From a virus: a stretch of DNA of 23,653 bases. The position numbers and the translations under genes were made by a program. The DNA is taken from the IMG/VR virus record IMGVR_UViG_3300006736_000093, positions 1 to 23,653 of that record, one strand, 5' to 3'. Each line of letters starts with the position of its first letter. Position 1 is the first letter of the stretch. Positions 3,153 to 16,205 of this stretch are shown in pieces. Below the pieces are notes generated by a model, which was given only the letters and a program-made list of their open reading frames with translations, had not been told where the DNA came from and made no database searches.

Positions 3153-5578
3153 CCACATTTTGCATAACCGCAAGATTCACAAGTCACGCAACCATCCTGG
3201 TATATTAAACCTTCACTTTCGCACGCCTCGCATGCTTTATCGCTTGCCACGTGTTCACCATTCTGAATATAGTTTTTAAGAATTCTTGCAATGCATTTTG
3301 AGAAGCTAAACATATCGCTGTCTCGATCTTTATGAAGCTGTTCAACAAGAAAGCTTGGCTTAGAACCATGGCGCAGAGCAAGAGAAATCATTCTTGTGAA
3401 AGCAGAATTTGTAGGATTGTCAAATACTGTTACAACACCTTTAATAAAGATGGCATCTTCTCCTTCTCCAACCTGCAGATCGTACCTATTATTTCTGGTT
3501 TTGAAACTATGTTTTGTCAAGATTCCTCGATTATGCTTTTTTGGGATTTCGATCAAATTTGAAAGACCCCCCAATACTTCATAAGGTTTGTTATCATACA
3601 GTCCAATAAGAATTGTCCATTTTTCACCCTGGATTGTAGTATGGTGTATGTCACACGAAAGCTCATCTGGTCGCTTGGGGGCTCCATTCTGTGGGAAACG
3701 ATCGTCTAAGTTGTTTGTCACCAAAACGCCAGTTCTACTTCCATCCACGTATACTGTAATACCTTTTAATCCTTTTTTCCAGCCTTCAAAATATAGTTGA
3801 CCAACAACACTAGGTTCAGTGCCTTTTGGAAGATTAATCGTTGAACTAATCGAATGATCAATACTTTTTTGAATTGCTGCCTGAACATCTATTCTTTTGG
3901 GCCAATCAATCTGATTGCTCTCTACAAAGAAATCAGGAATCTCTTCTGTTTTCATCAAATACATATATTCCTGCAAATTATGATGAAACACGTCATATTC
4001 TAGCCACTTGTCTCCAAGTTCATCAACGAAAGCCGGGACGATATCGCCCTCGTTATGAGAGAGTTTTCGTCTCCTAGTATAAGAATTCCTGAATACTGGT
4101 TCTATACCCGAACTTGTCTGAGACATGATAGAAACTGAGCCTGTCGGAGCATTTGTAAGAATAGAAATATTACGCCTTCCAAATCTAGAAATTTTTTCCT
4201 GCAAAATTTTTGGCAATCTCGAAATATAGGAATTCGATTTTTCTTTTTCCCAGTCAAACACTGGAAATGCGCCGCGTTCCTTTGCGAGATCAACGCTCTC
4301 GTTATATGCGGCATCTCTCAAAGTCTCATAAATTTTTTCTATCACACTCAAAGCTTCATCAGAATCATAACGAAGATTCAAACAAGCAATTGCGTCTGCT
4401 AGTCCATGAGTTCCGAGACCGGTCCTTCTTCCGTTTTGGCAAGCTTTAAGAAGATTCTTCCATAGCGCCTTCTCGTCTCTTGTGTCGCATACCTTTATAA
4501 TGTTCTCAAGCTTTTCAATTTCAAGCTCCACCAAGTCATCTGATAATCTCATGGCCCTGGCCGCCACTTCAGACAATTTATTGAAATCAAATTTTGGATT
4601 TTTAAATGGATTTTTCACCAAATTCTTAAGATTTATTGATATTAAGCGACAGCTATCGTAAGCGGAAAGAGGAATTTCTCCACAAGGGTTGGTCGTAACC
4701 GTTTTAAAACCAACATCAGCATAATTCTCAGCAGGAAGGTTGTTAACAATATTATCCCACATCATTAATCCTGGTTCAGCAGTCTTTGTTGCCGATTCAA
4801 CGATGAGGCTCCATAAATCCTCCGCCTGGATCTCTTTTGTAATAGTCGGCTTGTTAGAATCAACAGGAAATTGCAAAGTAAACGTCTGCTTATTTTCAAC
4901 GGCCTCCATAAAACTATCACTTATTTTAACTGAAACATTCGCACCTGTAACCTTTGTCAAATCATTCTTCATGGATACAAATTGTTCAATATCTGGGTGG
5001 TTCACGTCCATCGTAATCATCAGCGCACCGCGTCTTCCGTTTTGTCCAATCATGCGACAAACATAAGAGTAAAAGTCAGCAAAAGACCATGCCCCAGTTG
5101 TGGTCCCGGCGGAGTTGTTAACAGAGGCATTTTCTGGACGTAAACCAGAAATGTCGAGGCCGACGCCACAACGTCGCTTGAACAAATTAGCAAGATGCTT
5201 TCCAGAATCAACAATTGAAGAAATATTATCTTTCGGAGAATCCACAACAACACAGTTGGACAAAGACACATTAACATAATCGTTTCCAATCCCCATCATA
5301 GGAGATCCCTGCGGTACGACGTATTTAAAATTCTTCAACAGGGCATATATCTCATCCATAGACATAGCCCTTTTTCCTCCAAATTTTTTCTCCATTCTGG
5401 CAAATTCTGATGCTAGTCGCTTATGCATGTCGTCTGGAGTTTTCTCGACCAACTCGCCTTTTTTATTTTTTAAGGCATATTTGGTCATCCAAACATTCGC
5501 AGCTAGTTGATCTCCGTCAAAATATTTTAAAGTGGCCTGCTCAACTTCTTTTTTAGTGTTGTCACTTACTTCTGTCAC
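3149..5578 (-). CDS. nrdJ: class II (adenosylcobalamin-dependent) ribonucleoside-diphosphate/triphosphate reductase
   Basis: The 809-aa enzyme reduces ribonucleotides to deoxyribonucleotides. NPCGE (297-301) carries the thiyl-radical cysteine C299. C109 (in LSNC) and C310 are placed as the redox pair: the spacing C299-C310 equals that of the known class II enzymes. NAPTGSVS, about residue 480, is the phosphate-binding motif. The C-terminus holds a cysteine-rich tail (C783, C786, C797, C800, C803, C808) typical of NrdJ, containing the re-reducing thiols. No NrdB-type radical subunit gene is present in the window, in keeping with class II. The start is GTG at 5578: an AAGGAG sits 7 nt upstream (5591-5586) inside the last codons of the helicase gene, giving a 17-bp overlap. 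A B12-using or B12-acquiring host is implied. Confidence 0.93.
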   Translation of the reverse strand: MTEVSDNTKKEVEQATLKYFDGDQLAANVWMTKYALKNKKGELVEKTPDDMHKRLASEFARMEKKFGGKRAMSMDEIYALLKNFKYVVPQGSPMMGIGNDYVNVSLSNCVVVDSPKDNISSIVDSGKHLANLFKRRCGVGLDISGLRPENASVNNSAGTTTGAWSFADFYSYVCRMIGQNGRRGALMITMDVNHPDIEQFVSMKNDLTKVTGANVSVKISDSFMEAVENKQTFTLQFPVDSNKPTITKEIQAEDLWSLIVESATKTAEPGLMMWDNIVNNLPAENYADVGFKTVTTNPCGEIPLSAYDSCRLISINLKNLVKNPFKNPKFDFNKLSEVAARAMRLSDDLVELEIEKLENIIKVCDTRDEKALWKNLLKACQNGRRTGLGTHGLADAIACLNLRYDSDEALSVIEKIYETLRDAAYNESVDLAKERGAFPVFDWEKEKSNSYISRLPKILQEKISRFGRRNISILTNAPTGSVSIMSQTSSGIEPVFRNSYTRRRKLSHNEGDIVPAFVDELGDKWLEYDVFHHNLQEYMYLMKTEEIPDFFVESNQIDWPKRIDVQAAIQKSIDHSISSTINLPKGTEPSVVGQLYFEGWKKGLKGITVYVDGSRTGVLVTNNLDDRFPQNGAPKRPDELSCDIHHTTIQGEKWTILIGLYDNKPYEVLGGLSNLIEIPKKHNRGILTKHSFKTRNNRYDLQVGEGEDAIFIKGVVTVFDNPTNSAFTRMISLALRHGSKPSFLVEQLHKDRDSDMFSFSKCIARILKNYIQNGEHVASDKACEACESEGLIYQDGCVTCESCGYAKCG

Positions 5579-6938
5579 TTTTAAACTCCTTATATTTTTC
5601 TTTTAACAATTCCGCCTGCTCCTTGGCGGACTTGGTAATAATATCGTTAACTGTTTCTCCTGTTGGATCAAGCACTTCAATTTTAACGTTCGACGTATCC
5701 ATCAACAATGGATAAACTAGTCCATCGGGACCAAATCTGTTCTTTGCAATAAACATTCTTCCCGTGTTTACATTCTTGTCGTCAATCGTCCTCGAAACTG
5801 AAAATATAAGATCTGCAACAAAACATTTATTAAACGCCTCAGAGATAGATTCCATTGTTATTACTTCAGCATTCAATCCAGACCTATTAGTTTGTGAGGC
5901 TGTCCAAACCGGACAATTGTTTTTTTGAGCTATCGCTCTTAGCTCTTCATAAATAGATTCTAATTCCATTCTTTTCTCTTTACGAATAACATTTGGTTTC
6001 AGAAGATCTCCATAGTCAACAAGAATCATGTCTACTTTAAAATCTCGTTGTCTTAGTTTTTCAAGATGAGTTTCTATAGTTCTTGTGGATGCAGACTTTG
6101 TTGGATATTCTTTAACAATAAGACCTCCTTCGAGATCTTGAACATTTTCATAAATGTGTTCTTTAAACGTGAACAAATCCCTAAGAGGCACTCCAGTTAT
6201 GCAACTGTCGTATCTTGATGCTACCACAGTATCAGCTAATTCTAAAGTATAATGTACCACATTTTTCCCATTTTTTATAGCTTGCGCGCCTAAATGGACT
6301 AAAACCATGGATTTACCAGCTCCCGTGGGAGCTATAACAACTCCAAGCTCTCCTTTACCCAAACCACCCTTGGAGAGATTATCAATATGATTCCACCCTG
6401 TCGACACAGGGTTTCTTGCTTTGATCTCAAACCTTTTTTCGAAATCTTTCAGATAATCATAGCCAAAATTGTTGTCACATCCTAATTTAAGTGCATCATT
6501 AATAGTACATGCAATCTCATCAAATGATGAATTTTTAAGAAGTCCAACACTCTTGAGCATGGCTTCTTTCAGCACTTGTTTTTTACAGAAGTCAAGAGCA
6601 GTGTCTTTAATATATTCTTCGCCTTCGACCTCCATGTCAGACTTATAAATTCTGGAAAAATAATCTCTTACTTGTTTTTGTATGGCGTCATTTTCGTCAT
6701 CCAATTCAGAACGCACAAGCGTCAACATTGTTCGAGTTGTCGGATGAACTTTATATTTCTCTCGATATTCAAAAACTTTCTGAATAAACACTCGAAGATA
6801 TTTTAACTCCAAGAACTGGGTGTCAAGAACTTCTTCAATCTGATCACAAAACATCCTGTCTTTCAGGATCAATTGGCACAATTTCTCTTGGAAATCCTTG
6901 CCATATTTTGAAAAATCTGCTCTCTCTTCTCTTACCAT
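5562..6938 (-). CDS. replicative DNA helicase, DnaB/gp41-like (SF4)
   Basis: The 458-aa protein is close in length to T4 gp41 and should form the hexameric helicase that unwinds the fork 5' to 3'. The N-terminal part (about 1-150) is helical. The RecA-like ATPase core begins near 178. Walker A is APTGAGKS (203-210, K209), the catalytic glutamate is E233 in TLE, Walker B is ILVDYGD with D308, and SQTNR (348-352) is motif H3 with the sensor glutamine. The ATG at 6938 has AAGG 5 nt upstream, just beyond the tRNA 3' end, so the helicase is co-transcribed with tRNA-Ile. No primase is seen in the window. Confidence 0.92.
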   Translation of the reverse strand: MVREERADFSKYGKDFQEKLCQLILKDRMFCDQIEEVLDTQFLELKYLRVFIQKVFEYREKYKVHPTTRTMLTLVRSELDDENDAIQKQVRDYFSRIYKSDMEVEGEEYIKDTALDFCKKQVLKEAMLKSVGLLKNSSFDEIACTINDALKLGCDNNFGYDYLKDFEKRFEIKARNPVSTGWNHIDNLSKGGLGKGELGVVIAPTGAGKSMVLVHLGAQAIKNGKNVVHYTLELADTVVASRYDSCITGVPLRDLFTFKEHIYENVQDLEGGLIVKEYPTKSASTRTIETHLEKLRQRDFKVDMILVDYGDLLKPNVIRKEKRMELESIYEELRAIAQKNNCPVWTASQTNRSGLNAEVITMESISEAFNKCFVADLIFSVSRTIDDKNVNTGRMFIAKNRFGPDGLVYPLLMDTSNVKIEVLDPTGETVNDIITKSAKEQAELLKEKYKEFKSDRSK

Positions 6939-7214: not shown

Positions 7215-7243
7215 AATATACACTAATCTTCTTTCTTTGTCAA
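7215..7243 (-). promoter_or_regulatory. sigma70 promoter for tRNA-Ile, helicase and RNR
   Basis: On the minus strand TTGACA (7243-7238), 17 bp, TATATT (7220-7215). The predicted start is near 7208. It lies in the last codons of the methyltransferase gene, whose TAG stop falls in the spacer. It would express the small ORF, the tRNA, the helicase and the reductase independently of the nuclease/methyltransferase cassette. Confidence 0.82.
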
Positions 7244-8113
7244 GTTCATTCTTTCCATGCACTTGTCATAATATTTTTTATCTAATTCACATCCGATAAA
7301 GTTTCTTCCTGTGTTGTTCGCGGCCATGGCAGTTGTCCCAGAACCAAGAAAACAATCCAAAACAGTGTCACCCTTGTTTGAATGTTTGGTGACTAACTCC
7401 TCAAACAAAGGCAGACTCTTCTGAGTTGGATGACATCTATCTTTTCCCGAATGAATTGGATACTGGTACATGCCGTTATCATACGAACTGTTGAAAGTAG
7501 GCTTTTCTTTCTTAACTCCAAGAAGAGCTATTTCCCTACAATTTGTAAGATAATTAAGGCTGCTATTGCGAGGCTGCGGGTTTGTTTTTATCCACTCAAC
7601 AAATCTCAGTTGTTTGAAGTTGGTTCCTTCCATTTTCTCCTTCAGGTAAGATATCTTCCAGAGATCGAAGAATATAATACAAGTTCCGCTATTCTTAAGA
7701 ACGCGATAAAATTGCTCAACAAACAAATCCAATTGTTCCATGGAAAAATCAGAATCCCAAGAGCCAAAGTCAGTTTGAACAGCATATTTTTTGCCGTAAA
7801 TGCTTCCGTACTTTAGATAATCTTGTTTTAGTTTTTCTAGTTGCTTACTACGTAAATCCTCCGGCACATTGCCGGCTTCAAACCATCGTTCCCACTCTTC
7901 AGCAGACTTATAGTTGCCCCACTCTTTTTCGGTTTTTACATCGACCGAGCCAGACTTATTTTGTTGATTTACATGTTTGACCCATTTATCCATACCTGAT
8001 TCTTTAGAGGTTATGTATGGAGGGTCAATTAGAACGAGGTCTATAGAGTTGTCTGGAATATCTAATAAAAACTCAAGTCCTTCTTTGTTGTGTATTTCAA
8101 TATTATTCTGCAA
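7223..8113 (-). CDS. site-specific DNA methyltransferase, beta class (N6-adenine or N4-cytosine)
   Basis: The 296-aa enzyme transfers a methyl group from SAM to an exocyclic amine of DNA. The catalytic motif DPPY is at 30-33, after SIDLVLI. The SAM-binding FLGSG (255-259) comes at the C-terminal end, followed by the ribose-contacting glutamate E276. This order defines the beta class. The middle part (about 60-200) should carry target recognition. The start appears to be TTG at 8113 with a poor ribosome binding site. No ATG occurs before residue 41, past the catalytic motif, so translation probably depends on coupling with the nuclease gene, which it overlaps by 11 bp. Target sequence is unknown. 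DPPY more often goes with N6-adenine activity. Confidence 0.9.
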   Translation of the reverse strand: MQNNIEIHNKEGLEFLLDIPDNSIDLVLIDPPYITSKESGMDKWVKHVNQQNKSGSVDVKTEKEWGNYKSAEEWERWFEAGNVPEDLRSKQLEKLKQDYLKYGSIYGKKYAVQTDFGSWDSDFSMEQLDLFVEQFYRVLKNSGTCIIFFDLWKISYLKEKMEGTNFKQLRFVEWIKTNPQPRNSSLNYLTNCREIALLGVKKEKPTFNSSYDNGMYQYPIHSGKDRCHPTQKSLPLFEELVTKHSNKGDTVLDCFLGSGTTAMAANNTGRNFIGCELDKKYYDKCMERMNLTKKED

Positions 8114-9560
8114 CTTGACGACTCACGACTTCTTCTTGTTTTTGAAAATCAAAATGTGGTTCATTATCCTTAGAACCCTTCTTTCTATTTTCTTTCGTAG
8201 TCATAAGTTCAGCATTTTCTATGGTTGTTTCACCGCCGTTAGCAACAGATATTCTATGGTCAGTTTCGTACTTGCCTCCCTTATAAAGATCAAGTATGTC
8301 AATAACATCTCCGTCTCTAGTTTTTCCACCTTGAAGGTTCCACAGTCTAAGCTTGTCTTTGAATGTAAAGCTATCCTTGCTGGTTCGAATCTTTGGTTTT
8401 TCACTTAGCGCGCCATTGTTAATAAGCTTTTCTTTCTCTTTATACAGATGGCTGCCGAAAAGCACCGCGGTTTTCCTATAAAATTTTTGATCACCATAAG
8501 TCGTAGTCCAATGAATATAAGACTTTTCTTCTTTCTCTTTTTCTATAACAGTTTCAGCATATGCATTATACTCTGCATTCTTCGCTAGGAACCATTCCAT
8601 GAATTCCTCATAATCGTCGATTTGTAGACCATACTCATCAACGAGGTAAATGACGTCACAGAGATTATGCCACAGGCCGGTTTTTATTTGGTTTTTATTC
8701 AGTACCGCATCCCTACATTTTTTCACCTCTTTTAAAATATTTCTAACAGTTTTTTGTGTATTTGAATCGACACTGTTATTTTCTTTGTAATAATCATCTA
8801 AGGCTTTTTTCATAAGGCTGGTATCAAAGCTTTTGTCATGTTTGATACAGAGCTGTGCTGTCATTTGTTCATGAGTTCTTCTATCGTAGCTAGTAAGTTT
8901 TTTGAATACAAATAGAAAACCATCTCTAATGGTTGACACATTCGAAATCTCTCTAATAGTTGCCGTTAAGTCAGTTGATCTTGCTTGCCTCCACTCTTGA
9001 TCGTTTAGCGGTACTGCCCTATTCACGTTCCTAAATTCATCACACATGTCGACTTTAGAAATTTTTCTTAGTTCAAGTTTTGTTACTTGCTGGAAGTGGC
9101 GAACATGGTATTGCTGTTGCGCATCAAGATCTTTGAAATGTTTTTTATGTAGCTTGCTTCGAGTATGCGCATCCGGAATAAGCGCTGGAATTTTTCCTTC
9201 CACAAACCCATAGATCGCGCTAGCGGTATTGTTACCATCAATGCTAATCTCCTCATAGCCCTCATTAAGAACTCCTTGAAAATATTCGATATCTTCCTGA
9301 GATTTCTGTGCAATGGCCCACTGGAGACAATCTGCTACGCGGGCGACAATGATTCTTGTGCCAATCGCCTTGCCAGCGATAAGATTACCAATAAATTCTG
9401 AACTCTGCTTTTTGCCCCAACCTGATCCGTTATCAAGACCTCCATATCTTTGAAAAGACCCATCCAAAAACGTTTTTAGATATTGTTCAATAATCTGTTC
9501 TATGCTTCGCTGATTTGAATCTGTGTCATAAGAATCCTTACTGGTTATTTCATATCCCAT
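8103..9560 (-). CDS. DUF262-like/HNH nuclease (GmrSD-type or related)
   Basis: The 485-aa protein has two recognisable ends. Near the N-terminus, a QR pair (37-38) and IDGNN (107-111) match the QR and DGQ-type motifs of DUF262, the ParB-like NTP-binding domain of GmrS and related restriction proteins. The arginine that normally ends DGQQR is replaced by threonine. At the C-terminus, TDHRISVANGG (433-443), N449 and N458 with K461 form an HNH nuclease core. The middle is helical and unassigned. In known DUF262 nucleases NTP binding or hydrolysis gates DNA cleavage. The ATG at 9560 has an AAGGAG 12 nt upstream, rather far. It is the first gene of its own unit and overlaps the methyltransferase, which suggests a nuclease/modification pair. 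Confidence 0.8.
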   Translation of the reverse strand: MGYEITSKDSYDTDSNQRSIEQIIEQYLKTFLDGSFQRYGGLDNGSGWGKKQSSEFIGNLIAGKAIGTRIIVARVADCLQWAIAQKSQEDIEYFQGVLNEGYEEISIDGNNTASAIYGFVEGKIPALIPDAHTRSKLHKKHFKDLDAQQQYHVRHFQQVTKLELRKISKVDMCDEFRNVNRAVPLNDQEWRQARSTDLTATIREISNVSTIRDGFLFVFKKLTSYDRRTHEQMTAQLCIKHDKSFDTSLMKKALDDYYKENNSVDSNTQKTVRNILKEVKKCRDAVLNKNQIKTGLWHNLCDVIYLVDEYGLQIDDYEEFMEWFLAKNAEYNAYAETVIEKEKEEKSYIHWTTTYGDQKFYRKTAVLFGSHLYKEKEKLINNGALSEKPKIRTSKDSFTFKDKLRLWNLQGGKTRDGDVIDILDLYKGGKYETDHRISVANGGETTIENAELMTTKENRKKGSKDNEPHFDFQKQEEVVSRQVAE

Positions 9561-9594: not shown

Positions 9595-9623
9595 ATCATA
9601 CATCATTTTTTACTTGTTGTCAA
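9595..9623 (-). promoter_or_regulatory. sigma70 promoter of the DUF262-HNH/methyltransferase cassette
   Basis: On the minus strand TTGACA (9623-9618), 17 bp, TATGAT (9600-9595). The predicted start is near 9588, leaving a leader of about 28 nt. The FEN stop codon (9605-9603) lies in the spacer, so the promoter is squeezed into the end of the preceding gene. Confidence 0.84.
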
Positions 9624-10574
9624 GCAAAATCTTTTCATTGTTGCAAACATTTCTGACCAATCGTATGCACCGATGCCATCTTCAATCATCAGTCCAATGC
9701 ATTGAGTTTTATTTAGCTCTGGTGTCATCTCCTGAATTGCGTACTTAATCTTTTGACTAGCCTGTACTGAAATTAGTGGAGTATACAACTGCATCATTTT
9801 ATAATTTCTCTGTATTTTCTTCTCTCCGCTCAAAATATTATGATGAACTTTTAGAGGCTTCTCCACTGATTCACAAGCTTCAAAAAGTGTCTGGATCTCA
9901 TGCGGATTAGCCTCTGAGAGGAACGGAAACCGCTTAGCAACGGTCTTTAATCCTGCTCCCCCAACACCGTCTAGATTGTCGCTCTTATCGCCGCAAATGG
10001 CCCTTGCAAGGGCGAAGTTGTTAGGGTGTATACCAAACGTCTCAACTAGTCTTTTGACGTTTATGAACTCAACTTGGACCGGCCTGTAGACTACAGTTTT
10101 ATCGTTGCAGAGTTGATAAAAATCCTTATCACTAGAGATAATAACTTTTTGAGCATCCTTGAAATGAGGCATTTGAGCAACATAGCTAATGATGTCATCT
10201 GCTTCTATTTGTTCAATCATGATCTGAGAAACTGGCAGACAATTGAGATATGCAATCAGTCTCTGCTGTTGCCATATCTTATTATTCCGTTCCTCTTCCT
10301 CGGACATGATTCGCACATTCCTATTAAGACGAATAGGCTTTCTGCCGGCTTTATAGCCCTTGTGCATCGTTTTTCTTTTTCTACTTCCGTCAGGGCCATC
10401 CCAGCAGATCACAATATGATCCGGTTTCATCTCTCTGCAATATTTCTGCAGTGATTTAAGAAACCCGAAGGCTCCTCCAATGGGTTCTCCATTGAGGGCG
10501 ATTGACGGGTTGGATATATAAGCTCTCAAATAAATATTGAGTGCATCAATTACTAATACTCTTTTCAAAACCAC
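9603..10574 (-). CDS. 5'-3' exonuclease / flap endonuclease (T4 RNase H, T5 exonuclease family)
   Basis: The 323-aa enzyme should remove RNA primers and 5' flaps. Metal ligands of the family are all visible: D10 (VLVIDALN), D59 (CWDGP), the E124/D126/D127 cluster (EQIEADD), D149 and D151 (SSDKD), and D196/D199 in GDKSDN, followed by the helix-hairpin-helix GVGGAGLKTV (203-212). Start choice is open: GTG at 10574 directly abuts AAGAAGG, while TTG two codons later has AAGG 5 nt before it. Either overlaps the upstream 98-aa gene. It closes the recombination/replication unit begun at the ssb promoter. Confidence 0.93.
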   Translation of the reverse strand: MVLKRVLVIDALNIYLRAYISNPSIALNGEPIGGAFGFLKSLQKYCREMKPDHIVICWDGPDGSRKRKTMHKGYKAGRKPIRLNRNVRIMSEEEERNNKIWQQQRLIAYLNCLPVSQIMIEQIEADDIISYVAQMPHFKDAQKVIISSDKDFYQLCNDKTVVYRPVQVEFINVKRLVETFGIHPNNFALARAICGDKSDNLDGVGGAGLKTVAKRFPFLSEANPHEIQTLFEACESVEKPLKVHHNILSGEKKIQRNYKMMQLYTPLISVQASQKIKYAIQEMTPELNKTQCIGLMIEDGIGAYDWSEMFATMKRFCLTTSKK

Positions 10575-11601: not shown

Positions 11602-12720
11602 TTATTCTTCCTCTTGTTCTATGTCATAAAAATCTGATGCTTCGCCTTGACGTTTATCAAATTTAAGGATGACCTCTTCATCCATTATATTTAATACTCT
11701 ATCACGAAACTTCTCATTTGTCAACATGTTTTTCCATTTTGATGGCTGAAACTTTTCTTCCGTGCCATCTTTATATTGAAGCGAATACCATGCTCCACTT
11801 TGTTTAAGGTGTTCTGAAGCCTTGATTGCTTCGAACCAACTCTCTTCGTCCTGAATACCGATATTATCTCCCCATAAAATTTTAAAACTTGCCTGTCGGC
11901 CTTGAGTTCCAAAGCGGCTTTTTTTCAAAGTAGCCTTGACCTCTGACCCCACCCTAAACCCTCTTTCATCGAGGACAAAGCTGGCCTTTGACTTTCTACC
12001 CGTGAGCCAAACGCGGAGAGAGTACGCGTAGATCATGGCTTTTCCACCGGGTGTCATATAAGGTTCAACCATTGCCTCAGAGGGGCTTCTAGTGATGTTT
12101 GTCTTAAGTTGATTAAGAACTAGAAATGTAGACTGACTATTCGCAATCGGAACAGTTAGCTTGGACATTCCCTTGGCGAGTATGCGGGCTTTCACCGCCA
12201 TTGAAGAGAGAGGGTTAAAATCGCCTTCGACATCACTAACGGATGGGGTCAGAGCAAGACTGTCCCAAATGAAGAGCATACGATTGTCATTATTAGCGAG
12301 AAGATCTTCAATTGTTTCAAGCACGAACTCAACGCTTTGTGCTTGAATATAAAGCAGATTCTCTAGGTCGCAACCGGTTCTTTCTAAAAATGTCGGATCA
12401 ATTGCTGACTCAGAATCAAAATAGATTACGTCAATACCCATATTCTGAGCGTTAGCTGCAATCTGAGCAGCCATGTACGACTTACCCGTTGATTCTAATC
12501 CAGCAATTTCAACAACTTTTCCAATTGGAATACCGGTGAGCTTTCCACGACAAACGATGGAATCCAACCAACGAGATCCGGTTGGAATCCAATCCTTCAC
12601 TTCTGTTGGATTACTATTAGTTAAATCGTGTGCAACAGACATACCAGCCTTCTTATTAATAAGGCTGCGCATGTCCGACATAGAAAGTTTACCTGCTTTA
12701 TTTTTTGCTTTTCTCGCCAT
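11602..12720 (-). CDS. UvsX/RecA-like recombinase
   Basis: The 372-aa protein should form ATP-dependent filaments on single-stranded DNA and carry out strand exchange, as T4 UvsX (391 aa) does. Walker A is GLESTGKS (74-81), the catalytic glutamate is E104 in FDSESAID, and Walker B ends at D153 (MLFIWDS). The segment VLNQLKTN (about 203-210) fits the glutamine switch before loop L2, and MTPGGKAM follows it. The acidic tail ends in EQEEE. The ATG at 12720 has AGGA 7 nt upstream. It follows the FKBP-like gene by 37 bp in the ssb unit. No UvsY-like loader was recognised. Confidence 0.95.
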   Translation of the reverse strand: MARKAKNKAGKLSMSDMRSLINKKAGMSVAHDLTNSNPTEVKDWIPTGSRWLDSIVCRGKLTGIPIGKVVEIAGLESTGKSYMAAQIAANAQNMGIDVIYFDSESAIDPTFLERTGCDLENLLYIQAQSVEFVLETIEDLLANNDNRMLFIWDSLALTPSVSDVEGDFNPLSSMAVKARILAKGMSKLTVPIANSQSTFLVLNQLKTNITRSPSEAMVEPYMTPGGKAMIYAYSLRVWLTGRKSKASFVLDERGFRVGSEVKATLKKSRFGTQGRQASFKILWGDNIGIQDEESWFEAIKASEHLKQSGAWYSLQYKDGTEEKFQPSKWKNMLTNEKFRDRVLNIMDEEVILKFDKRQGEASDFYDIEQEEE

Positions 12721-12757: not shown

Positions 12758-13261
12758 TCATTTTTTATTGCTAATGCTCAGAAGTTCAATCTCGAAGTTC
12801 AAACTCTTCCCAGCTAGAGGGTGATTAAAATCCAGAACAACAGAGTCCTGTTCAACTGAATCAATTTTTGCCATAACTGGTTGCCCCTGTGGATCATGAC
12901 CCTGTACGAGAAGCCCTTCTTGAAGTTTAAAATCCGGAGGAAACGACGATTGCGGCACAGCTTGAACTGCCTCGGGGTTGACGTTCCCATAAGCTTCCTC
13001 TGGGGATAATTTAACGTTTTTTACTTCGCCAATCTTCATTCCCGCCAGAGCCGAATCAAAACCTGGAAGCAGCTGCCCTGAGCCAACCTCGAAGGACAAA
13101 GCCTCATCACGTGTTCGCGAACTATCGAATTCGGTTCCATCATCAAGAGTTCCTACGTAATGTACACTTACCGTTTCTCCACCTTTTACCTTTTTGCTCC
13201 TTGTTTTTTTCATTTTTGTTTTTTTACTTTTTTCGCTCTTCACATCATCTTTTGTACTCAT
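12758..13261 (-). CDS. FKBP/SlyD-type peptidyl-prolyl cis-trans isomerase
   Basis: The 167-aa protein catalyses proline isomerisation and, in SlyD relatives, binds unfolded chains through an inserted flap. After a lysine-rich leader (residues 1-27 with eleven Lys and one Arg) comes the FKBP core: VSVHYVGTLDDGTEFDSS (about 32-49), FEVGSGQLLPGFDSALAGM and the flap-type segment after AYGN. DFNHPLAGKSLNFEIEL near the end is a SlyD hallmark. ATG 13261 has AAGGA 9 nt upstream. The gene lies between ssb and uvsX. An FKBP is uncommon in phages. The basic leader could bind nucleic acid or an acidic partner such as the SSB tail, which is inference. Confidence 0.9.
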   Translation of the reverse strand: MSTKDDVKSEKSKKTKMKKTRSKKVKGGETVSVHYVGTLDDGTEFDSSRTRDEALSFEVGSGQLLPGFDSALAGMKIGEVKNVKLSPEEAYGNVNPEAVQAVPQSSFPPDFKLQEGLLVQGHDPQGQPVMAKIDSVEQDSVVLDFNHPLAGKSLNFEIELLSISNKK

Positions 13262-13333: not shown

Positions 13334-14071
13334 TTACGAAAGAAGCTCACTGAAAGCTTTATCTACCGAATCTCCCGATTCGGTGTTATACTTCTCTACA
13401 TCAGAAGAGTTATCGTCAACATTGCCCGATAAATATTCATCGAGAATGGTTTCAACGTCTCCCGGTGTTTTACGCTCAAAAAGCGAGTCAAGATCCGGAA
13501 TTGTATCCAGCCATTCAGCACATTGTGATTCTTCCTCACAAAGTGGCGAAGGGCGACGGCGCGGAGTAATCTCCGTTTGAGGGAAGGACGCTCCTGCAGG
13601 CTTTCCATAACGAATCACCAGATCAGTTCCAGTTTCATGATCTGTGATATCGCCATATTCAGGATTGAGGACAAGATTAAGTAGCTTCTCATAAGCCATC
13701 TTGCCAAACCCCCAAATACGCACACCTTTATCTTCTTCGCCACGTACTACCACGGGAGCGAAGAAACGCTGGCGCGCTGACAAAGACTTTGCCATCTTAA
13801 TACTCTCTTCCGTTCCCTCCTTATAGAGTTTGCGAACAAAATTATCGAGTGCATCGTCTTCTCCAAAGTTCTTTTTTGGACTCAAGAACCCGGGAGCGTT
13901 TCCGACGTTGTAGTGAAACCAATAATCCTTGAAAGGATCCCCATCTGGAGTAGGAACGATGCGAATCGTTGTCTCTCCATCTTGAGGGCGCCAGAAGTTC
14001 TCCCGGCCGCCACCGTTTTTATTATCTAGTTCGCTGCGTCGTGAACGCATTTTTTCCATATCAATACCCAT
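13334..14071 (-). CDS. single-stranded DNA-binding protein, T4 gp32-like
   Basis: The 245-aa protein has the gp32 layout. A basic, polar N-terminal arm (about 1-22) fits cooperative binding. The OB-fold core carries FWRPQDGETTIRIVPTPDG (26-44) and FAPVVVRGEEDKGVRIWGFGKMAYEKLL (about 104-131). An acidic, serine-rich tail ends in DKAFSELLS and should bind partner proteins. The zinc site of T4 gp32 (His plus three Cys) is degenerate: at the expected places are S64, D73 and D76, with H53 kept. ATG 14071 has AAGGAG 7 nt upstream. It is the first gene of its unit, behind a promoter and a leader hairpin. Confidence 0.9.
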   Translation of the reverse strand: MGIDMEKMRSRRSELDNKNGGGRENFWRPQDGETTIRIVPTPDGDPFKDYWFHYNVGNAPGFLSPKKNFGEDDALDNFVRKLYKEGTEESIKMAKSLSARQRFFAPVVVRGEEDKGVRIWGFGKMAYEKLLNLVLNPEYGDITDHETGTDLVIRYGKPAGASFPQTEITPRRRPSPLCEEESQCAEWLDTIPDLDSLFERKTPGDVETILDEYLSGNVDDNSSDVEKYNTESGDSVDKAFSELLS

Positions 14072-14129: not shown

Positions 14130-14158
14130 ATAGTAACACAATGAATTCTGTTTGTCAA
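14130..14158 (-). promoter_or_regulatory. sigma70 promoter (extended -10) of the ssb-FKBP-uvsX unit
   Basis: On the minus strand TTGACA (14158-14153), 17 bp, TACTAT (14135-14130), with TG-T just ahead of the -10 (extended -10). Predicted start is near 14123. The TGA within the -35 is the stop codon of the tubulin-like gene. Confidence 0.85.
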
Positions 14159-14997
14159 GTGTTTTTTTCACTTTTTTGTCGTTGAATTTCTGATGTGTGG
14201 CTAACCACATATACATAATTTTTTACATAATCTGTTGCAAAAATTCCGTAGCCAACTTTTAAATCACTTTTAACTTGTTCTCTGATTTTTTTAAACAAAT
14301 CTCCCTCTTCCTCAAGTTTACTTTTGTTTATTGCATAATAATACATTATTTCTTCTGTTTCGTCAAGGGGAAAAAATAATTTTTTTTCACCATCATCAAT
14401 GTCCATGATTCCAATAGTGGAAATTCTGTTAATATTGCGCGGGGGTGCCAAAGTGCTAGTTACGGGATTAATATGATTATAAACATTAATCATATGCATC
14501 GTAGAAACAATCATCTCATTTAATCGTTCATGATATCCAATTATTGACACGTTCCCTAGATGTCGCTCAATTTCAGGGTTGCTCACTAAATAAATTCTTT
14601 TAAAAACTCCGGATCTGGTATACTCCTGTAGAATATTGAAAGTGGCCCATTCGTGAGATACACTTGCCGCAGGGAGAAGTTCAACCTCTGGCCTAATATA
14701 AAGAATGTTTATATCACAATGTTTTATAGTCTCCAAAACTCTAAGAGAAGCTGCGGAAATGGCTCCGGCGCCGCCGATAACAAAAAGCACCTCCCCCTGA
14801 ACATCCTTAAAGAAATTACTCATATTCGGGCAATTCTCTTCATATTTTTCTGGATCTTCTTGTCGTGGCATCTTATATACGTTGTCTCGATCAACCTCTA
14901 TATCTGTGTCAATCTTATAAATTTTATACTGACTATATTTAGAAAATTTATCAGCAATGTTACAGCCAGCATTACCCAAGCCGATTACGGTTTCCAT
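14155..14997 (-). CDS. divergent FtsZ/tubulin-superfamily protein
   Basis: The 280-aa protein aligns in pattern with the FtsZ/tubulin GTPase domain. VIGLGNAGCNIADKF (4-18) corresponds to the first glycine loop, IDTD (29-32) to NTD, FVIGGAGAISAAS (72-84) to the GGGTGTG signature loop, and ILYIRPE (98-104) to the strand before the T5 loop. A helix and strand with VFKRIYLVSNPEI fit the vDTLIVIPN region, and FATDYVKNYVYVVSHTS (253-269) fits the C-terminal sheet. The signature loop is altered (GGAGAIS), and the T7 loop NxDxxD that triggers GTP hydrolysis in a filament is not seen: the matching place reads NPVTST (177-182). It may therefore not polymerise as FtsZ does. The start forms TAATG with the polymerase stop. 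The fold assignment is inference. Confidence 0.6.
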   Translation of the reverse strand: METVIGLGNAGCNIADKFSKYSQYKIYKIDTDIEVDRDNVYKMPRQEDPEKYEENCPNMSNFFKDVQGEVLFVIGGAGAISAASLRVLETIKHCDINILYIRPEVELLPAASVSHEWATFNILQEYTRSGVFKRIYLVSNPEIERHLGNVSIIGYHERLNEMIVSTMHMINVYNHINPVTSTLAPPRNINRISTIGIMDIDDGEKKLFFPLDETEEIMYYYAINKSKLEEEGDLFKKIREQVKSDLKVGYGIFATDYVKNYVYVVSHTSEIQRQKSEKNT

Positions 14998-16193
14998 TAT
15001 ACAAGCTCCTTAAGATCGCCAAAGTTTTTACCAGTTTTGACACCAGTTTTAAACTTGCCAAATCTCGTGTTAGAAAATTCGCTTATGATATCTTTCATGA
15101 GATGTTTATCGTCCGCATGTAAATCAACAACTATGCTGTCGTGTACGCAAAAAGCGATATTCGATTTCTTGTTGTCTAGCATATCATAAATTTTAATCAT
15201 TTTTTGTAAAATAAGGTCAGCGCATGTGCTTTGAATAATATAATTCAACGCATGGTGTTTATCCGCCTCGATCTCTCTGTTAAAACAAGTCCTAACTGTT
15301 GTCCCATCCCAATAATCATTTAAAACTTTATCTTTATCATACATCTTCCTCAATATTTCCTCATTGGGATGTTTCTTTGAATTGTAAAGCCATGCAAAAA
15401 TAGAATTTTTAACTTCTTGTCGCGATAGAACCTTGTTCCCAGATAAAACTCTTCTATTCCACTCATGTATGTCCATATTTATTTGATTCCTATCTGATAA
15501 CGCCAACAAGGTTCTCAACTCTGCTCCGTTATAATCCAGTTCGACAAATAAATTATTATTTGGCTTGATGATGGAGCGATATCTTTTTGGAAAAGTAAGA
15601 ATCGGAAAACTGTATTTTTTTGTCGTAAGTCTTCCAGTCTTTGTGCCAAAAATATCATATTTTATATATGGTGAAATACTATTGATTTTCTTTTTCCATT
15701 GCCTGGCCTTATGTTCCGATAGAAATGGCTTAAGCTCATCAATGTCTATATTAAGCTTTTGCTGATTTACGTCCTCGATCACTTTTGTTAATGAGGTCAG
15801 GAATCTCAGATTTTTTGGCGGCAAAAAATTTTCAAACACGTGTTTTGTGATCTTATTTTTTACTCCACAAAATTCTAATAAAAACCTCTCCGGCACCAAA
15901 TCATAGAAGCAATTGTCGTCCATGGATACTTTAGAAAGATGAAAGGATCTTATAAAAGCTTTTAACTTATTGTTTATTTTGTTCCAATCTTCTTTTATAT
16001 TTGGGGGACAAACATCATCAAGAGATTTGCCACCACACTGCAAATAGCCGTATCCAATTTCTCTATCCCGGAGAAAAGGCGCGTAATCCCATGTTTGATT
16101 AATTCCCTTAGGAAGTTCATCATTGAAGTGAAGATCTCCGTCATAATATACCCCTATACATTTATGTTTGTTATCCAATGTTTGAAATAACAT
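14997..16193 (-). CDS. short family A DNA polymerase
   Basis: The 398-aa protein has the palm and fingers of Pol I. Numbering from the ATG plus one, TGRL (187-190) is the template-contact motif, motif A is LDYNGAELR with D221 and E226, DIH (242-244) matches the Pol I DIH motif, motif B (O-helix) is R259-K263-F268-Y271, QST (322-324) follows, and motif C is CVHDS with D353. Pol I has HDE there, so the conserved glutamate is serine. A full Klenow fragment is about 600 aa. No 3'-5' exonuclease motifs are visible in the first 130 residues. ATG 16193 has AAGG 7 nt upstream; a longer frame would start at TTG 16196. It is coupled to the tubulin-like gene. Confidence 0.85.
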   Translation of the reverse strand: MLFQTLDNKHKCIGVYYDGDLHFNDELPKGINQTWDYAPFLRDREIGYGYLQCGGKSLDDVCPPNIKEDWNKINNKLKAFIRSFHLSKVSMDDNCFYDLVPERFLLEFCGVKNKITKHVFENFLPPKNLRFLTSLTKVIEDVNQQKLNIDIDELKPFLSEHKARQWKKKINSISPYIKYDIFGTKTGRLTTKKYSFPILTFPKRYRSIIKPNNNLFVELDYNGAELRTLLALSDRNQINMDIHEWNRRVLSGNKVLSRQEVKNSIFAWLYNSKKHPNEEILRKMYDKDKVLNDYWDGTTVRTCFNREIEADKHHALNYIIQSTCADLILQKMIKIYDMLDNKKSNIAFCVHDSIVVDLHADDKHLMKDIISEFSNTRFGKFKTGVKTGKNFGDLKELV

Positions 16194-16205
16194 CAACCAA
16201 CCTTG

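Follow-up and report, generated by a model that had tools for sequence, protein, structure and literature searches.

A predicted tubulin/FtsZ-fold protein without the T4 and T7 GTPase motifs is encoded between polA and ssb in uncultured T4-like phages

Most tubulins known from phages and bacteria hydrolyse GTP and assemble into filaments. The locus described here raises the question of what a protein of this fold does when it lacks the motifs of the GTPase and is encoded within a phage DNA replication operon. The locus lies in a fragment of an IMG/VR virus record, and the whole stretch of 23,653 nucleotides (23.7 kb) that was analysed is referred to as the window. An earlier note on this DNA described the product of one open frame, assigned here to a family named A1 (Table 1), as a degenerate FtsZ/tubulin-like protein coupled to a DNA polymerase. 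A large family of such proteins appears to be without the GTPase and the filament interface, strongly selected, and fixed between the genes of the polymerase and the single-strand DNA-binding protein (SSB). The fold may therefore have been put to a new use in the replication of phage DNA. The reading favoured here, with a probability of about 50%, is that A1 acts as a non-hydrolysing, probably nucleotide-binding tubulin-fold replication accessory made together with the polymerase PolA.

Table 1. Position of A1, its translation signals and the associated replication genes in the window
Feature	Position	Strand	Basis
Degenerate tubulin/FtsZ-fold protein A1, 280 aa	14155..14997	-	ORF with ATG start, model, fold match, alignment
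TAATG overlap of PolA stop and A1 start, one base common to both	14995..14999	-	Sequence
AAGGAG, likely ribosome-binding site within the polA 3′ end	15006..15011	-	8 nt upstream of ATG
Short family-A DNA polymerase (399 aa), constant partner of A1	14997..16196	-	Pfam PF00476, E 6.9e-16
gp32-like single-strand DNA-binding protein, constant neighbour downstream of A1	13334..14071	-	phrog_1192, E 2.7e-24
UvsX/RecA-like recombinase, A1 operon	11602..12720	-	Profile matches, neighbour survey
5′-3′ exonuclease, A1 operon	9603..10574	-	Pfam PF02739, E 1.2e-28
DnaB-like helicase, A1 operon	5562..6938	-	phrog_19, E 3.4e-69

The AlphaFold2 model of A1, built from 42 family members, has a pLDDT of 92.5 and a pTM of 0.91. 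The order of its strands and helices resembles FtsZ through helix H7, and the N-terminal nucleotide domain, H7 and the C-terminal activation domain are all present in the predicted structure. In the Foldseek comparison with the PDB, the model matched Staphylococcus aureus FtsZ (E 1.7e-12), Bacillus cereus TubZ (4.6e-12) and CetZ (1.2e-11), and the fold match spans both domains together with the connecting H7. All 50 listed matches were FtsZ, TubZ or CetZ, mostly with a query TM of about 0.65–0.71. The fold-library search proposed in the earlier note thus bears out its assignment, with FtsZ as the top match, and the plain Rossmann fold that the note had set against it does not appear among the listed matches. 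Among viral models, the best match was A0A6J5RW92 (BFVD; TMq 0.78, E 2.6e-13), annotated as FtsZ of an uncultured Caudovirales phage, which differs from A1 in its length of 452 aa and shares 15% identity with it; PhuZ-like proteins scored lower.

The sequence signal is marginal. Pfam, PHROGs, NCBIfam and the PDB searched by sequence returned nothing usable for the window A1 protein, and some of its relatives have weak PHROG matches, themselves without an attached function. The Pfam Tubulin model PF00091 gave no match for the window protein and matched 3 of the 42 members, at best with an E-value of 0.1, which does not reach the cut-off. The profile-profile alignment (hhalign) of A1 with A2, an intact FtsZ-like family considered below, has an E-value of 0.035, compared with 0.08–0.36 for seven control families, and its 85 columns run colinearly from T1 to T4. 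Since these signals are marginal, the superfamily assignment rests on the predicted fold, by which A1 is a member of the tubulin/FtsZ superfamily.

The sequence blocks that had been described as following the order of FtsZ are all located in A1. In the window protein, these are the T1 loop GLGNAGCN (6–13), YKIDTD (27–32), GGAGAIS at the T4 position (75–81), RPE (102–104), H7 (155–173) and the C-terminal sheet. Conservation was computed over 118 distinct homologues. The T1 loop GLGxAGC(N), D30, N140 of T6 and N160 of H7 are near invariant; the entropy is 0.19 bits at N140, 0.17 at N160 and 0.53 in T1, compared with 2.53 at the T7 position and a core mean of 1.74. Neither the T4 signature GGGTG nor the T7 motif NxDxxD, in place of which the window protein reads NPVTST, occurs in any of the 118 sequences, and none of the positions 174–191 is conserved as acidic. 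In the model, no helix lies between H7, which ends at 173, and the strand 192–198, so H8 is missing, whereas the model of the intact A2 has a helix (250–257) at this place. The T7 loop of A2, SPIQTFDSKDL, has an entropy of 0.46. The degenerate signature and T7 loops noticed in the window copy are therefore not peculiar to it, and the loss is family-wide.

The nucleotide pocket may remain in A1, because the T1 glycines and the asparagines of T6 and H7 are near invariant in the alignment. An FtsZ active site is complete once the adjacent subunit contributes its T7 loop (PMC4603965). By analogy, A1, with T7 and H8 absent, is expected to be incapable of ordinary GTP hydrolysis and of lengthening a normal protofilament. 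The other invariant or near-invariant residues are Y24, Q124, Y126, R128, S129, H168, N171, R191, T194, Y219, T255 and Y257. Those from Y24 to R191 in this list should, judging by topology, cluster on the face that carries T7 in FtsZ, because the ends of H5 and H7 sit opposite the nucleotide, at the place of T7. This putative cluster is proposed to form a remodelled binding surface that may contact PolA.

A1 is a new family in the tubulin fold, in which T4 and T7, two of the defining features of the GTPases, are lost. It shares with bacterial FtsZ (S. aureus and M. jannaschii; PDB 3vo8, 7ojd, 1fsz) the two-domain fold with H7, the strand order, the T1 glycine loop and the asparagine/aspartate positions of T6 and H7, but differs by the absence of GGGTG in T4, NxDxxD in T7 and H8, by its shorter chain and by its place in a phage replication operon. 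The PhuZ/TubZ proteins of phiKZ-like jumbo phages are likewise phage-encoded tubulin folds; however, they form polymers and hydrolyse GTP by means of a catalytic aspartate in T7 (PMC3678025), which A1 lacks, they match its model with a TMq of about 0.52–0.59, and they belong to another phage lineage. Identification of A1 as PhuZ/TubZ was rejected on the missing aspartate and on contigs of about 203 kb at most with a gp23-type capsid. An example of the reverse pattern is FtsZl1, a divergent member of the superfamily suspected not to form normal filaments (Makarova and Koonin 2010; PMC2875224). It keeps GGGTG[ST]G, has no recognisable T6-H7 and adjoins vWA-domain genes in cells (PMC2875224), whereas A1 has lost GGGTG[ST]G, keeps T6-H7 and stands in a polA-ssb rather than a vWA context, so this identification was rejected as well. 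In the open literature searched, no description of phage FtsZ-like proteins without T7 was found.

The first IMG/VR scan gave 54 relatives of A1, and the profile-based scan extended the family to at least 579 matching stretches. In the 25 pairs whose dS could be used, dN/dS has a median of 0.083; with a ratio of about 0.08, the family is under strong purifying selection and is not decaying. This ratio and the conservation of T1, D30, N140 and N160 place the features of A1 well outside what chance would produce. The T4-type gp23 capsid protein was found in 12 of 12 large contigs. Its closest counterparts in isolates are those of Flavobacterium phage immuto and Microcystis phage Mel-JY01, which are about 48% identical to it along part of their length. 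In INPHARED (50,697 phage records), tblastn gave no significant match for the A1 protein or for a hand-made approximate consensus of the family, and likewise none for the window PolA and a 994-aa structural protein. In GTDB genomes, no A1 relative was present among 408 pattern matches. For the recombinase of the operon, identity to phage-record proteins among the matches listed does not exceed about 32%. By their sequences, the carriers of A1 form an uncultured branch of T4-like phages, since they encode the gp23 capsid and are only distantly related to isolates. They are probably marine, judging from the accompanying relatives rather than from sample metadata. The T4 sliding clamp model PF02916 had no match in the 12 contigs, but it may miss divergent clamps, so this is not taken as absence of a clamp.

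The neighbourhood of A1 was surveyed in 130 loci, where a recognised gene is one of 22 gene families of the window, and small unrecognised genes can stand between recognised neighbours. Where the contig extends, the first recognised neighbour upstream is the family-A polA in 116 of 116 loci and the first one downstream is ssb in 121 of 121. Beyond ssb follow the recombinase, the 5′-3′ exonuclease, the helicase and often ribonucleotide reductase. In roughly two-thirds of the loci, polA and A1 lie −13 to +5 nt apart, which means that the genes overlap or touch, and GGAG stands ahead of A1 in many relatives as it does in the window. Because the first loci had been picked by A1, a search with PolA as bait was run as a check. 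It gave 69 new PolA loci, of which 68 have A1 downstream; in the remaining one, the contig ends. The TAATG join to the polymerase, to which the earlier note had drawn attention, is present, and the link is much stronger than this one junction.

The linkage has a limit within the polymerases. Among 22 contigs picked for A2, a close PolA (E < 1e-150) is present in seven, which are the same seven that carry A1, and in the remaining ones PolA is distant or was not detected. Flavobacterium phage immuto (L318, 1346–2318), the closest cultured phage that shares the operon, has two small hypothetical genes between polA and ssb. Together with the bait search, these results tie A1 firmly to one clade of PolA and not to PolA generally; as the slot in immuto holds no A1, phages whose PolA is more distant can do without the protein. 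A divergent A1 hidden next to polA in the contigs with a distant polymerase was considered and rejected, as the ORFs there look unrelated, and the 428-aa gene directly upstream of ssb in Microcystis phage Mel-JY01 was rejected as not tubulin-like by eye.

The mechanism proposed for A1 as a replication accessory is that of a pseudo-FtsZ, in which the T1 loop and the base-contact asparagines are kept while GGGTG, the T7 residues and H8 are lost. Such a protein would bind nucleotide without hydrolysis and without formation of FtsZ-type protofilaments. Coupled translation would yield it together with the short PolA, and it could then serve as an accessory subunit of the polymerase or as a scaffold organising the phage replisome with SSB, presumably through a physical link to PolA or SSB. 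The unbroken polA-ssb linkage favours replication over division, and A1 shows the strict genetic linkage with the polymerase that belongs to the polymerase accessory class. As a counterpoint, one operon can mean common timing rather than contact. The more specific version, in which the replisome has gained a tubulin-fold protein as its own subunit or organiser, bound to the short PolA via the rebuilt T7 face, is offered tentatively. To our knowledge, no polymerase accessory factor of the tubulin family was known before, and if A1 acts in replication, the tubulin fold gains a role outside the cytoskeleton.

The main rival to the replication role is inhibition of the host FtsZ. In this scenario, A1 docks on host FtsZ by one face, caps or poisons the filament and halts the Z-ring during phage replication, which would make it a new type of division inhibitor. 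Phage inhibitors of FtsZ exist, e.g., lambda Kil (PMC3961180). The fold match of A1 is to FtsZ itself, and the bottom face required for filament extension is absent from the modelled protein. The scenario is nevertheless doubtful, as A1 always occupies the slot between polA and ssb, which would not be typical of a gene for host takeover, both its length and its core show strong conservation, and the T3 loop of FtsZ has no obvious counterpart in it.

It is unlikely that A1 is a nucleotide-binding enzyme or a dNTP/GTP sensor, with its site at the conserved polar cluster and a function tied to nucleotide supply. Such an activity would account for the invariant polar residues Q124, R128, S129, H168, N171, Y219, T255 and Y257 and would suit an operon with ribonucleotide reductase and dCMP deaminase. 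These nucleotide genes, however, vary between the loci (23 and 27 of 130, respectively, many loci being incomplete), whereas A1 is constant, and we know of no catalytic tubulin-fold enzyme besides the GTPases.

A further candidate partner is the intact protein A2. Contigs G001 (165.9 kb, the nearest to the window among large contigs) and G002 encode, apart from A1, proteins of 364 and 346 aa, respectively, with GVGGGGGK, GGGGGTGS and DSKD. By sequence, FtsZ structures are recovered with the A2 profile (E 2.6e-9), the A2 model resembles phage FtsZ (E 8e-22), and tblastn of the protein against INPHARED gave no significant match. A2 and A1 both occur in this broad group of uncultured T4-like phages, but A2 differs in its intact T1, T4 and T7 (DxKD), its length of 346–364 aa and its genome location. 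Some phages thus own one intact and one degenerate tubulin-fold protein, and A1 was found in 7 of 26 contigs picked for A2, which would allow A1 to copolymerise with A2 or to cap it. A2 was found in 2 of 29 A1 contigs and was undetected in the other 27, including contigs of 155–190 kb. Because only this minority encodes A2, A1 normally works without it and an obligate copolymer is unlikely; an intact FtsZ partner in all A1 phages was rejected as a general rule. The copolymer role suggested in the earlier note is accordingly disfavoured in general, despite the existing pairs, and copolymerisation or capping is improbable as the function of A1; the other two roles suggested there, a nucleotide sensor and an inhibitor of host FtsZ, keep a somewhat higher probability. 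Finally, it is highly improbable that A1 is a mis-modelled Rossmann-type protein or a decaying relic, since, for all the marginal support from sequence profiles alone, both domains and H7 are matched, the 50 listed PDB matches are all superfamily members and the dN/dS rules out decay.

Several minor observations concern A2 and the genes around A1. The A2 family (GGGGGTGS, T7 DxKD) includes L127:1027-2121(-), L128:988-2028(-) and 80 loci, L131–L210, on contigs of uncultured T4-like phages that reach 281 kb. In L131, A2 lies between an unassigned 237-aa ORF and other unassigned ORFs, one with a weak tape-measure match, and aminotransferase and sugar-epimerase genes are near it. The window PolA, with its roughly 399 aa, leaves no room for a 3′-5′ exonuclease domain; motif A of the family-A polymerase reads DYN/DFN..E.R, and motif C is often HDS rather than HDE where the VHD pattern is seen. 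A gene for an FKBP-type prolyl isomerase (12758–13261) lies within the replication operon between ssb and uvsX, and is present in 18 of 130 related loci. At 7223–9560 of the window, an N6/N4 DNA methyltransferase stands beside a protein of 485 aa whose C-terminal stretch is HNH-like (TDHRISVANGGETTIENAELM). As these genes are rare (4 and 2 of 130 related loci, respectively), the pair is probably a mobile restriction-modification-type insert between the helicase and the exonuclease.
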